Below the pieces are notes generated by a model, which was given only the letters and a program-made list of their open reading frames with translations, searched no databases and was not told where the DNA came from. Made by a program: the position numbers and the translations under genes. 64,000 nucleotides of DNA from Corynebacterium appendicis CIP 107643 (GTDB lineage Bacteria; Actinomycetota; Actinomycetes; Mycobacteriales; Mycobacteriaceae). Below are positions 648 to 58,712 of this stretch, in pieces (within the stretch, counting starts at the first letter, position 1; the number at the start of each line of letters is the position of its first letter). The stretch lies in assembly GCF_030408415.1 (NCBI RefSeq), contig NZ_CP046976.1, forward strand, positions 1,302,001-1,366,000, in the 5' to 3' direction.

Positions 648-1520
648 CTAAACTACCAGCGATTTCGCAGCTTCGCGCAGCTCAGCGATACCGGGTCCGG
701 CCGACAGCACAGAGCGGGACACATTCGGGAAGACAAGGTGCGCCTGTTCACCGGCGATCCGTGCGACATCCTCCATGGTCGCGCCCTGCGCGCCGACGCC
801 CGGCATGAGCACCGGAGCGTTGAGTTTGTCCAGCTTGGGAGGCTTCTTCACCGTTGCTCCCACGACAACGCCGACATGCCCGACATGTCCTTCGTGCCCG
901 GCCGCGGAGCCGGACTCCCCGTTGCGAGCACGCTTATCGACGTTGAACTCAGCGCATTCGTCCACCATGTGCTGCGCCACAGTGGCACCGCTTCCGCTGA
1001 GTGTCTGCGCCTGGAAGCCTTCGGCCTCCGGGTTGGAATTGGCGGACATGACGAACACGCCGCGCCCTTCCCTACCGGCCAGCTCGATGGCGGGAGCCAA
1101 GGATCCGACTCCGAGGTACGGCGTGAGCGTGACCGCATCGCAGCACAGCGGTGAATTCTGGTCCAGCCAAGCCAGGGCGTAGCCCTCCATCGTGGAGCCG
1201 ATATCGCCGCGTTTCGCGTCGGCGACGACCAGAGAGTCGCTTTCCCGCAGCTGATCGAGTGTTTCTTCCAGCACGGCGAATCCAGCAGACCCGAAGCGCT
1301 CATAGAAAGCGACCTGCGGTTTGATCAGCGCTACATGCCCCGCAAATGCCTCGACGCAGCGGAGGGAGAATTCGCGCAGGCCGTCGACATTGGTGCTGAG
1401 ACCCCAGGCCTCGAGAAGCGCCTCGTGAGGGTCGATGCCAACGCACAAACGGCCGTGAGTCTCCCCTACTTCGACGAGACGGTTGCCGAAGTTACGGCGT
1501 GTGTTCTCCTGCGCACTCAT
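648..1520 (-). CDS. pyrF: Orotidine 5'-phosphate decarboxylase
   Basis: A 290-residue cytoplasmic enzyme that decarboxylates OMP to UMP, the last step of de novo pyrimidine synthesis. The N-terminal CVGIDPH motif and the catalytic VADAKRGDIGST segment (about residues 96-107) place it in the longer type-2 PyrF subfamily seen in actinobacteria and myxobacteria. A C-terminal MPGVGAQGA phosphate-binding loop is present. The ATG at 1520 directly abuts the carB TAG stop, implying translational coupling at the end of the pyr operon. The gene carries one copy (932-942) of the 11-mer described in the findings, here encoding Val-Asp-Lys. Confidence 0.96.
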   Translation of the reverse strand: MSAQENTRRNFGNRLVEVGETHGRLCVGIDPHEALLEAWGLSTNVDGLREFSLRCVEAFAGHVALIKPQVAFYERFGSAGFAVLEETLDQLRESDSLVVADAKRGDIGSTMEGYALAWLDQNSPLCCDAVTLTPYLGVGSLAPAIELAGREGRGVFVMSANSNPEAEGFQAQTLSGSGATVAQHMVDECAEFNVDKRARNGESGSAAGHEGHVGHVGVVVGATVKKPPKLDKLNAPVLMPGVGAQGATMEDVARIAGEQAHLVFPNVSRSVLSAGPGIAELREAAKSLVV

Positions 1521-4500
1521 CTACTCGGCCGCCTGAACTACGTTGTGCTCGAGTTCCTGCAGGCTGGTCACCGTGATCTCGTTGACACGCAGTGATTCGA
1601 TGCCTTGCACTGCGGCGGTGACACCCTGAACCGTGGTCATGATCGGCACGCTGGACACCACCGCCGCTGCACGAATGTCGTAGCCGTCGTGGCGTGAGCC
1701 AGCGGAACCAGCCGGGGTATTGAGCACCAAGTCGACTTCGCCTTCCAGGATACGGTCAACGATAGATGTGCCGTCGGCGCCCCCGCGGACCTCGGAAGCC
1801 TTGAGGGCAACTTCGCACTCGATGCCGTTACGACGCAGCATCTGAGCCGTGCCCGCCGTAGCCAGGACCTTGAAGCCCATGGTGGACAGTCGCTGGATCG
1901 GGAAGATCAGCGTGCGCTTGTCACGATTAGCCAAGGACACGAACACGGTTCCTTCGGTGGGCAGCTCGCCAAACGCGGCAGCCTCTGCCTTGGCGAAGGC
2001 GACGCCAAAGGACGGAGCGAGACCCATGACTTCGCCGGTGGACTTCATCTCTGGGCCGAGAATCGTGTCCAGCACGGCCCCGTCTGGGCGGCGGAAGCGG
2101 GTGAACGGCAGAACTGCTTCCTTTACTGCGATCGGGTGCTCGAGTGGCAGGGAGCCACCGTCGTAATTGGACGGAATCAGACCTTCACCGCGCAGCTCCT
2201 CGATGGTCGCACCGAGCATGATGCGTGCAGCAGCCTTGGCCAGGTGTACACCGGTGGCCTTGGACACGAACGGCACCGTACGGGAAGCACGCGGATTGGC
2301 CTCGATGACATAGAGGATGTCGTCCTTCAAAGCGAACTGGACATTCATCAGCCCCTTGACACCAATACCGTGCGCGAGTGCCTCAGAGGAACGGCGGACC
2401 TTCTCAATATCATCCGGCCCCAACGTCATCGGCGGAAGTGCACAAGCCGAGTCACCGGAGTGAATTCCGGCTTCCTCGATGTGCTCCATTACGCCGCCCA
2501 AGTAGACGTCCTTACCGTCGCAAAGCACGTCCACATCGATCTCGATGGCGCTGTCCAGGAACCGGTCCACCAGCACCGGATGGTCCGGGGACAACTCTGT
2601 TGCGCGGTCAATGTAATCGCGCAGGTTCTCCTCGTCGTAGACGATCTCCATGCCACGACCACCAAGCACGTATGACGGTCGGACCAGCACCGGGTAGCCG
2701 ATACGGTCAGCCACTTCGCGTGCGCCGTCGAAGGAGGTCGCAGTGCCGTACGACGGTGCAGGCAGGTTGGCTGCATCGAGCACCTTGCCGAATTCGCCAC
2801 GGTCTTCGGCCATGTCGATCGCCTCGGGCGTGGTGCCCACGACAGGAACGCCAGCATCAGCGAGCTTTTGAGCAAGCCCCAGCGGAGTCTGGCCACCAAG
2901 CTGGACGATCACGCCGGCAACGGTGCCGGTGGCTGCCTCAGAGCGGTAAATCTCCATGACATCTTCGAAAGTCAGCGGTTCGAAGTAAAGACGATCTGCG
3001 GTGTCGTAGTCGGTGGAGACGGTCTCTGGGTTGCAGTTGACCATCACGGTCTCATAGCCAACGCGGGACAGCTCGAGTGCCGCGTGGACACAGGAGTAGT
3101 CAAACTCGATGCCCTGGCCAATGCGGTTCGGGCCAGAGCCGAGGATGATTAACTTTTGTCGGTCACCGGAACCCGCGACAGAAGACACTTCCGATTCTGC
3201 ATTCGGGTCGTACTCATACGCCGAGTAGTGGTACGGGGTCTGTGCCTCGAATTCGCCAGCGCAAGTATCCACGGTCTTGTACACCGGGTGAATATCCAGC
3301 GACCAGCGCAACGCCCGAACACCGTCTTCACCGGCGAGTTCCGGGCGAAGCGCAGCAATCTGGGCGTCGGAAAGCCCGAAGACCTTTGCCTCGCGGAGGA
3401 GGTCGGCGTCGAGCACCGGGGCGTCGATAAGCTGCTGCCTGAAATCAATCAATGCCTGAAGCTCGGCGAGGAACCACGGGTCGATACCACTTGCCTCGTA
3501 TACCTGCTCGATGGTGGCGCCGAGGCGCAGAGCAAGCTCAACGTCGTAGAGGCGCTTGTCCGTAGGAACCTTGAGGTCCTCGAGCACAGCGGCGACATCC
3601 GTTGCGCGGTCACCAGCGAAGTACTCGTCCGGCTTGGTCCAGAATCCGTTCGGCTTATCCTCCATGGAGCGCATGACCTTGTTCAGGCCCTGGATGTAGT
3701 TGCGGCCAATGCCCATGGCCTCGCCCACTGCCTTCATGGAGGTACCCAGGGTCTCGTCGGAGCCCGGGAATTTCTCGAATGCGAAGCGCGGCATCTTCAC
3801 AATGACGTAGTCGAGCGTCGGCTCGAAAGCAGCCGGGGTGACACCAGTGATGTCGTTCGTGATCTCGTCGAGGGTATAGCCAATAGCCAGCTTGGATGCG
3901 ATCTTGGCGATCGGGAAGCCCGTTGCCTTCGACGCGAGCGCGGACGAGCGCGACACGCGCGGGTTCATCTCAATGGTGATGATGCGGCCGTCAACAGGAT
4001 TCACTGCGAACTGGATATTGCAGCCACCGGTGTCCACGCCAACTTCGCGGATAATCGCGATGCCCTGGTCGCGCATCGTCTGGAATTCCCGGTCCGTCAA
4101 GGTCAGCGCCGGTGCAACGGTGACGGAATCGCCAGTGTGCACGCCGAGTGCGTCGACGTTTTCGATGGAGGCGATCACAACAACGTTATCGTCCCCGTCA
4201 CGCATGAGCTCGAGCTCGAATTCCTTCCAGCCGAGAATGGACTCCTCGATCAGCACATTCGCTTCCGGGCTGGCCTCAAGACCGTCGCCGGCGATGCGCT
4301 CAAGGTCCTCCATAGTGAACGCAAGACCAGAGCCAAGGCCACCCATGGTGAACGACGGACGCACAACCACAGGTAGGCCAAGCTCGGCCACCGTTTGTTT
4401 GACCTCGTCCATGTTGAAGCACACGCGGGAGCGAGCCGACTCGCCGCCGATCTTGGCCACGATGTCCTTGAACTTCTGGCGGTCCTCACCACGCTCAATC

Positions 4501-4877
4501 GCGTCGATATTCGCGCCGATGAGTTCGACATCGTGCTTGGCCAGAATGCCCTGGCGGTCCAGCTGGATCGCGGCGTTGAGCGCAGTCTGTCCACCGAGCG
4601 TGGCCAGGATTGCGTCCACTTTGTGGCCCTGCTCCGCCTCGCGGGCAAGAATCCTGTCGATGTATTCCGGCTGGATCGGTTCCACGTAGGTATGGTCCGC
4701 GAACTCCGGGTCGGTCATGATCGTCGCCGGGTTGGAGTTGATCAGCGTGACACGCAGTCCTTCTTCTTTGAGGACGCGGCACGCCTGGGTGCCCGAGTAG
4801 TCGAACTCGCAGGCCTGCCCGATGACGATCGGGCCGGAGCCAATGACCAGGACGTGGTTGATGTCTTCGCGTTTCAT
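1521..4877 (-). CDS. carB: Carbamoyl-phosphate synthase large subunit
   Basis: An 1118-residue protein with two homologous ATP-grasp halves, full length for the family. It makes carbamoyl phosphate from bicarbonate, ATP and ammonia channelled from CarA, feeding pyrimidine and arginine synthesis. The first half opens with [19 protein letters not shown] and contains [17 protein letters not shown]; the second repeats these as [18 protein letters not shown] and [20 protein letters not shown]-terminal MGS-like allosteric domain includes the ATAGTAQML segment. It starts 15 bases after carA in the pyr operon. One 11-mer motif (3422-3432) encodes Leu-Ile-Asp near residue 480. Confidence 0.98.
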
Positions 4878-57934: not shown

Positions 57935-57956
57935 CAGAAGAAGCGCCAGTTCCCGC

Positions 57957-58712
57957 CTACTCGTTGGCGAGTGCCTCAGCGACCTCGTCAGAAAGCGTCA
58001 TGTTGGTGTAGACGTTCTGCACGTCGTCAGCGTCCTCGAGTGCGTCGATAAGCTTCTCGAGCTTCTTCGCGCCGTCGAGATCGAGGTCGACCTCGACGGA
58101 GGAGCGGAAGTCCTGCTCGGTGTCTTCGACCTCGATGTCGGCTTCGCGCAGCGCGTCGCGCACGGCGTACAGGTCGGTGGCCTCGGAGACGACCTCGAAG
58201 TGCTCGCCCAGGTCGTTGACTTCCTCGGCGCCCGCCTCGAGCACGGCCATCAAAACATCGTCTTCGGTCAGGTCTCCCTTGACCACGGTGTTCACGCCCT
58301 TGCGGCTGAACATGTACGCGACGGAACCGGACTCGCCGAGGTTGCCGCCGTTCTTGGTCATCGCGGTGCGCACGTCGGTGGCGGCGCGGTTGCGGTTATC
58401 GGTCAGGCACTGAATGAGCATGGCCACACCATTCGGGCCGTACCCCTCGTAGGTGATGTCTTCCCAGTCGGAGCCGCCGGCTTCCTCGCCGGAGCCGCGC
58501 TTGCGTGCGCGCTCGATGTTGTCCTTCGGGACGGAGGCCTTCATGGCCTTCTTCATCATGTCGTCGAGGGTGGGGTTGCCCGCTGGGTCACCGCCGCCGG
58601 TGCGTGCCGCGACCTCGATGTCCTTGATCATCTTCGCCCACAGTTTGGAGCGCTTCGCGTCGTTAGCGGCTTTCTTGTGCTTAGTTGTAGCCCATTTCGA
58701 GTGGCCTGCCAT
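57957..58712 (-). CDS. yebC: YebC/PmpR-family protein
   Basis: A 251-residue protein of the TACO1/YebC family, variously described as a transcription regulator or as a factor relieving ribosome stalling. ATG at 58712 gives [31 protein letters not shown], the family start, with GGGGAG upstream. Further hallmarks are [39 protein letters not shown] and [17 protein letters not shown]; the C-terminal domain is acidic. It is followed by a terminator. The 11-mer (58043-58053) encodes Leu-Ile-Asp near the C terminus. Confidence 0.95.

Follow-up and report, generated by a model that had tools for sequence, protein, structure and literature searches.

As far as we can tell, DNA uptake words are known from Neisseriaceae and Pasteurellaceae (PMC7811141). 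The DNA uptake sequences (DUS) of Neisseriaceae occur in hundreds to thousands of dispersed copies, form dialects that follow phylogeny, and are absent from some species (PMC3630211); their receptor is the minor pilin ComP (PMC6370729). The uptake signal sequence (USS) of Haemophilus influenzae has a 9-bp core with 1,465 copies and flanking AT-tracts that add to uptake, presumably by helping the duplex to bend or open (PMC7811141), and is often paired in terminators (PMC5217627). In the actinomycete Micrococcus luteus, transformation needs ComEA/ComEC together with Flp/Tad pili (PMC6370729). Here we describe an 11-bp word, GCTTATCGACG, that is over-represented in a 64,000-nucleotide stretch of the genome of Corynebacterium appendicis CIP 107643 (contig NZ_CP046976.1, positions 1,302,001 to 1,366,000; hereafter the window) and is one dialect of the template GCTTNNCGAYG. 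A preliminary description, made from the sequence of the window alone, had likened it to a genome-wide recognition word, possibly for DNA uptake. Genus-wide counts, dialects, and a compositional tail make it close to certain that this is a recognition word; for a role as a self-recognition signal in DNA uptake by Com/Tad machinery, we see about an even chance.

Like DUS, the Corynebacterium word has dispersed copies, dialects, and species free of it; unlike DUS, it has an unrelated sequence, belongs to another phylum, contains two variable bases in its head, carries a ~35-bp tail of C over G, and hardly ever occurs in pairs. With USS it shares a short core and a flanking compositional tract, here an 11-bp head and a one-sided tail of ~35 bp, but the flank consists of C replacing G rather than of AT-tracts, and there is 1 inverted pair among 260 copies. 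As in M. luteus, gene families for ComEA/ComEC and a Tad-type pilus are found across Corynebacterium; in contrast, the accessible parts of the M. luteus reports mention no uptake sequence (PMC6370729; the phrase “uptake sequence” occurs 0 times in PMC6667448).

Genome-Wide Enrichment of the Word

The closed source genome (2,284,440 bp) contains 585 copies of GCTTATCGACG (303 forward and 282 reverse), or ~1 per 4 kb, and the reversed-letter control is found 0 times forward and once in reverse. With 14 copies, 6 forward and 8 reverse, GCTTATCGACG is the top-ranking 11-mer of the window, and all 14 exact copies listed in the preliminary description are where it had placed them. They are given here together with the 35 bp downstream of each:

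932–977, + strand: exact word at 932–942 and its 35-bp downstream stretch; exact match
5633–5678, + strand: exact word at 5633–5643 and its 35-bp downstream stretch; exact match
10190–10235, + strand: exact word at 10190–10200 and its 35-bp downstream stretch; exact match
28024–28069, + strand: exact word at 28024–28034 and its 35-bp downstream stretch; exact match
40715–40760, + strand: exact word at 40715–40725 and its 35-bp downstream stretch; exact match, word kept in relatives L025, L026, and L027
46011–46056, + strand: exact word at 46011–46021 and its 35-bp downstream stretch; word kept in relatives L025 and L027, not in L026
3387–3432, − strand: exact word at 3422–3432 and its downstream stretch at 3387–3421; second template copy at 3365 on the same strand
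12574–12619, − strand: exact word at 12609–12619 and its 35-bp downstream stretch; exact match
17880–17925, − strand: exact word at 17915–17925 and its 35-bp downstream stretch; exact match
18626–18671, − strand: exact word at 18661–18671 and its 35-bp downstream stretch; exact match
42591–42636, − strand: exact word at 42626–42636 and its 35-bp downstream stretch; same word in 12 of the 14 relatives aligning there
44189–44234, − strand: exact word at 44224–44234 and its 35-bp downstream stretch; word in 0 relatives aligning there
51645–51690, − strand: exact word at 51680–51690 and its 35-bp downstream stretch; exact match
58008–58053, − strand: exact word at 58043–58053 and its 35-bp downstream stretch; same word in all six nearest relatives (L025–L030)

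A near copy with its last base changed, also reported earlier, is present as GCTTATCGACA and aligns to a perfect copy in relative L025. We extended the counts to a 464-kb sample covering 20% of the same genome (20 evenly spread stretches of 20 kb plus the window), where 110 copies stand against 0.42 expected under an order-3 Markov model, so that the suspected excess holds well beyond the window. Copies are present in 19 of the 20 stretches; a low-copy stretch, L010, in which the exact word is absent, encodes a transposase-like protein and a metal pump and is not clearly a genomic island. Such genome-wide over-representation of a word of ~9–12 bp is characteristic of uptake sequences. In the same sample and against Markov expectations, words with a single change are at or near background except at positions 5 (changed to C, G, or T: 22, 23, and 15 copies vs. 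2.3, 1.6, and 0.7 expected) and 3 (T to G: 14 vs. 0.5). The base before the word, said to be usually A or C, is one of these in 13 of the 14 window copies, but in the larger sample (n = 109; C 55, A 25, T 20, G 9) this reduces to G being seldom used. The word often has CC directly after it.

The Head Is Followed by a C-Rich Tail

Downstream of the head, ~35 bp of the same strand are C-rich and G-poor, a feature absent from the preliminary description. Within genes, the C-G skew of this tail is 0.239 for 48 sense copies, vs. 0.018 at phase-matched random places (z 13.4), and 0.336 for 36 antisense copies, vs. −0.014 (z 16.0). In successive 5-bp bins it amounts to 0.27, 0.10, 0.34, 0.27, 0.18, 0.25, and 0.14, then −0.03, for 258 template copies of the C. 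appendicis genome, and to 0.34, 0.02, 0.24, 0.19, 0.09, 0.11, and 0.09, then 0.01, for a pool of eight other genome sets (332 copies), dropping to zero beyond 35 bp in both. C exceeds G in the tail of all nine template-positive sets tested, most weakly in genome G048 (0.42 vs. 0.35). No tail follows the decoys, three words of similar composition (20–27 copies) and one that departs from the head at a single base (150 copies), for which the skew is 0.009–0.026. Upstream, a slight excess of A in C. appendicis is inconsistent elsewhere. The element is dispersed, polar, and ~46 bp long, composed of the 11-bp head GCTTNNCGAYG and a ~35-bp tail in which C replaces G.

Rho sites show a C-over-G bias that the tail shares, which would suit a signal at the RNA level, such as a Rho loading site in C-rich, G-poor RNA. 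Copies in genes, however, are split almost evenly between sense and antisense orientation (50 vs. 39), and the sense copies fall within coding sequence, which a transcript signal would not allow; we regard this explanation as very improbable.

Codon Use and Orientation

Genes were predicted in the 464-kb sample with our own simple caller (406 genes, 84% coding). Of the 110 copies, 46 are in the Leu-Ile-Asp frame, 29 in Val-Asp-Lys, 10 in Ser-Ile-Ser, and 4 in others, with 21 intergenic; they thus occupy five gene frames, on both strands, plus sites between genes. The 89 copies in genes compare with a mean of 3.3 when synonymous codons are permuted across all genes and 4.4 when they are permuted within genes (highest values 9 and 10, respectively, in 100 shuffles each), and protein constraint does not explain the word, as had been argued from the window. 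Nor are copies confined to Leu-Ile-Asp codons, a pattern that would have marked a coding effect. The word shapes proteins, and not the reverse, because 49 of 67 Leu-Ile-Asp tripeptides are spelt CTTATCGAC despite CTT being a minor Leu codon (871 of 11,735, with 46 of these CTT inside the word), and because 10 of 104 ATA codons lie inside the word. Because the Leu-Ile-Asp frame holds 46 of the 89 in-gene copies, the word might be suspected of simply following from codon usage, protein motifs, or base composition; the codon-preserving shuffles, with their 3–4 copies, already refute this, and with the use of rare codons and the intergenic copies they leave it a negligible probability.

Replication strand was assigned via GC skew, although several stretches have almost none; on this basis the G-rich strand carries 56 copies of the sample and the C-rich strand 54 (p 0.92). 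Template copies are likewise without strand bias (137 vs. 123; p 0.42), so the mapping of strand bias that had been proposed for the word finds none. Having no preference for strand or gene sense, the word therefore acts on DNA regardless of its direction. Uptake sequences, too, are found on both strands, within and between genes, and independently of codons.

Orientation also bears on a Chi-type recombination hot spot, at which a helicase-nuclease would read the single-stranded head during break processing and then switch activity. Chi words serve recombination and, like the present word, are over-represented and differ between species; the spacing of Chi in Escherichia coli is ~1 per 4 kb, similar to that of the exact word, and a C-rich, G-poor strand, being poorly structured, could aid the loading of a strand-exchange protein. 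E. coli Chi is, however, strongly oriented with replication, whereas we find no orientation bias, and the known Chi words, at 5–8 bases and without a 35-bp tail, are shorter than the 11-bp head. We consider a Chi-type role unlikely.

Dialects and Distribution

Across 151 Corynebacterium genomes, counts of the exact word range from 0 to 686, and GCTTNNCGAYGCC reaches 797 copies (backwards control, 0–16). By the larger of the word and template counts, 111 of the 151 genomes (nearly three quarters) have at least 60 copies and so bear the footprint of a DNA-recognition process, in a genus of Gram-positive bacteria that includes skin, industrial, and pathogenic species; counts of 30 or fewer are found in 35. 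Five are intermediate with 31–47 (G013, G077, G123, G062, and G084), their signals possibly decaying or young.

Unbiased word counts, made without the template, reveal that sister words replace GCTTATCGACG in many species poor in exact copies: GCTTGCCGATG in G006 (24 vs. 0.26 expected), GCTTGCCGACG in G005 (12 vs. 0.12), GCTTGACGACG and GCTTTACGACG in G099 (15 and 10), and GCTTGACGACG in G048 (9 vs. 0.28), while G091 has 11 copies of GCTTTTCGACG alongside 15 exact ones. A search of gapped words (4-2-5), also template-free, ranks GCTTnnCGATG first in G006 (53 vs. 3.0) and GCTTnnCGACG second in G048 (27 vs. 3.1). Beside the latter, G048 (L161–L164, L120, and L140) has another gapped word, GATTnnCGACGC (10 vs. 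0.21), perhaps a dialect with an altered second base.

On a quick tree of the Rel protein, the GATG dialect belongs to a group that contains C. macginleyi and is nested next to GACG species, C. tuberculostearicum among them, and it is found too in C. phoceense and J010B-136. Seven of 50 named genomes are at background for both word and template; their template counts are 25 in C. uropygiale, 10 in sp. 13CS0277, 27 in C. meridianum, 27 in sp. TAE3-ERU16 (covered by only one of the two named-genome counts), 31 in C. marambiense, 7 in C. mendelii, and 5 in C. glyciniphilum. C. lubricantis has 29 template copies but 270 exact ones. Because the background species are scattered over several places on the Rel tree, as is the GATG dialect, we infer a minimum of three losses and repeated changes of dialect. 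Dialects that go with clades, together with species free of the word, are likewise what uptake sequences exhibit.

The nearest named relatives of C. appendicis by Rel are Corynebacterium sp. Marseille-P3884, p3-SID1145, and C. urinipleomorphum. Some labels disagree with the tree (L091, L095, and L047): “C. vitaeruminis 1285_CVIT” falls beside C. amycolatum, “C. halotolerans 307_CHAL” beside C. xerosis, and a “Mycobacteriaceae bacterium” inside Corynebacterium.

Among 199 genomes from other genera of the order, the exact word has 0–10 copies and the template at most 57, a maximum reached in a genome of 10.5 Mb; most template counts match the backwards control, and a few exceed it 2–6 times, at 19–52 copies. 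Three genomes of other genera, at 80 kb each, contain no comparable word. As far as sampled, the head is specific to Corynebacterium within its order. In 110 kb from each of the background genomes G066, G147, and G014, we find no convincing alternative word. A mild excess is seen of TATCCGACGCC in G066 (6 vs. 0.05 expected; L149–L152, L123, and L143) and of CGGACGCC words around GGACGCC in G147 (L153–L156, L118, and L138); these may be remnants or another signal.

Conservation of Sites

In a stretch of the window shared with three relatives at 86.5, 83.4, and 82.3% identity, 5, 4, and 5 of 6 copies are intact, where chance survival, taken as identity to the power 11, would be ~1 of 6; the comparison of related species, suggested as a check on the word, thus reveals copies being kept. 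Of 14 relatives, at varying distances, that align at the 42626 copy, 12 have the identical word; the copy at 44224 recurs in none of those aligning there. Selection or drive thus maintains the sites, which nonetheless turn over.

Mobile DNA is poor in copies: four plasmids and two phages have 15 template copies in 278.5 kb, or 5.4 per 100 kb (7 in pTP10, 5 in pCETAM, and 2, 1, 0, and 0 in the others), vs. 18.6–92.5 per 100 kb in 16 template-positive sets and 13.5 in the J010B-136 and macginleyi sets (22 kb each). The contrast is a weak one because the hosts of these plasmids and phages are mostly uncounted.

Their scarcity on plasmids and phages, their conservation in relatives, and their even spread along the genome are what would be expected if the copies were genome-wide binding sites of a chromosome-organizing or nucleoid-associated protein. 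Sites of this kind, such as parS, KOPS, and matS, keep to certain places or orientations and differ little from one related species to the next. The word, in contrast, has no direction bias, recurs in nearly every stretch sampled, and has dialects within one genus, and about 1 in 4 of the sampled species are without it, which is odd for a basic chromosome function. A chromosome-structure role appears doubtful, a prospect a shade fainter than that of Chi.

Competence Machinery and DNA Uptake

An uptake signal would account for these properties because the word is intrinsically directional, indifferent to replication and transcription, present at hundreds of sites, and changed or lost as a set, which is the pattern that arises in Neisseriaceae and Pasteurellaceae where recognition of incoming DNA reinforces itself (PMC3630211; PMC7811141). 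In such a system, the head would be bound by a DNA receptor on the cell surface, which might be one of the minor pilins of the Flp/Tad pilus or a partner protein, and the tail would supply a mechanical or shape property for gripping and threading the duplex; ComEA and ComEC would then bring one strand inside. Copies would accumulate if DNA bearing them were taken up and recombined more often, dialects would emerge as receptor and word drifted together, and species losing specificity would let their copies decay.

The gene families required are widespread. ComEC and DprA are over cut-off in all 151 genomes of the genus, ComEA and ComM each in 143 (any match, 151), and the pilus ATPase family (T2SSE) in 145 (any match, 148), which fits a capacity for transformation. 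Carriers of the word have this machinery, with the exception of five draft genomes that are without an ATPase over cut-off.

Several observations count against uptake. The 35 genomes with 30 or fewer copies still have ComEC and DprA, and one of them, G014, has ComEA, ComEC, and a Tad-like locus that seem intact; having the machinery is therefore no guide to having the word. An ATPase over cut-off is missing from six genomes, and carriers make up five of them (G021, G075, G092, G113, and G119); these are all drafts, two of them just 53 and 77% complete, and assembly gaps may account for the absence. Inverted terminator pairs, a frequent though not strictly defining feature of uptake sequences, are rare: among the 260 template copies, a single inverted pair and a single direct one lie within 80 bp. 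DUS have ComP as their receptor, whereas for the Corynebacterium word, whose part in uptake we infer, no receptor candidate emerged from small pilin-like proteins inspected by eye only. The literature listings searched contain no report of natural transformation in Corynebacterium and, among the matches listed, no paper on the word or its dialects beyond chance hits. A scan of 569 genomes for spaced motifs names Corynebacterium, in the accessible part of the paper, for CRISPR-derived motifs only (PMC5217627).

A related possibility is a site at which a DNA translocase loads when chromosomal DNA passes from cell to cell, like the clt repeats read by Streptomyces TraB. Transfer that favors self would likewise spread such a word, in any direction and with room for dialects, but clt sites are clustered 8-bp repeats, and the word occurs as single copies. 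We consider this quite improbable. The probability left by the uptake signal is shared by Chi-type, chromosome-structure, and transfer-translocase sites.

If the word is an uptake signal, a proposition we hold to be evenly balanced, Corynebacterium would have its own polar, two-part signal that evolved independently of the signals in Neisseria and Haemophilus; such a signal would be without precedent both in Gram-positive bacteria and for a machine of the Tad/Flp type. Most species of the genus, many of them human-dwelling, would then exchange DNA by natural transformation within dialect groups, and the dialects would predict which species swap genes with which. Uptake would also provide a practical recipe for testing transformation in species that are harmless and suited to the laboratory, and the many independent changes and losses of dialects would help in finding the receptor. 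If the word does not serve uptake, some other, so far undescribed protein is needed to account for the 11-bp head, its 35-bp tail, and the dialects.

We sought gene differences that separate carriers from noncarriers. The presence of ComEC, ComEA, T2SSE ATPase, DprA, and ComM does not differ between them. The content of the Tad-like locus, compared in 20 genomes, does not separate them either: the ATPase, the criterion of selection, is found in 20 of 20, and presumptive TadZ-like, Flp-like, and TadE/F-like genes, as we name them from gene order, size, and recall rather than from a family scan, in 18, 18, and 19, with the absences coming from the crude gene caller. In 19 genomes, the profile match of the ATPase does not start before position 60; 18 of these genomes are at background and one is a carrier (G112, 283 template copies), and this may be a matter of clade. 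ComEC exceeds in several background genomes its length in the word-rich genomes inspected, with 652–714 residues in G010, G066, G147, and G003, for example, vs. 531 in C. appendicis, but it is long in carriers too (666 residues in G034 and 658 in G102). In the com locus of C. phoceense (L115), comEA and comEC read as broken or N-interrupted, in a genome with 500 template copies; this may reflect either the assembly or true loss.

Other Over-Represented Words

Two further words stood out. In G274, from another genus of the family (L197–L200), the palindrome GGCGATCGCC occurs 22 times in 80 kb vs. 2.9 expected and includes the cyanobacterial HIP1 octamer. In L095, TCAGGCGTCA occurs 10 times in 22 kb vs. 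0.07 expected and is probably a tandem array.

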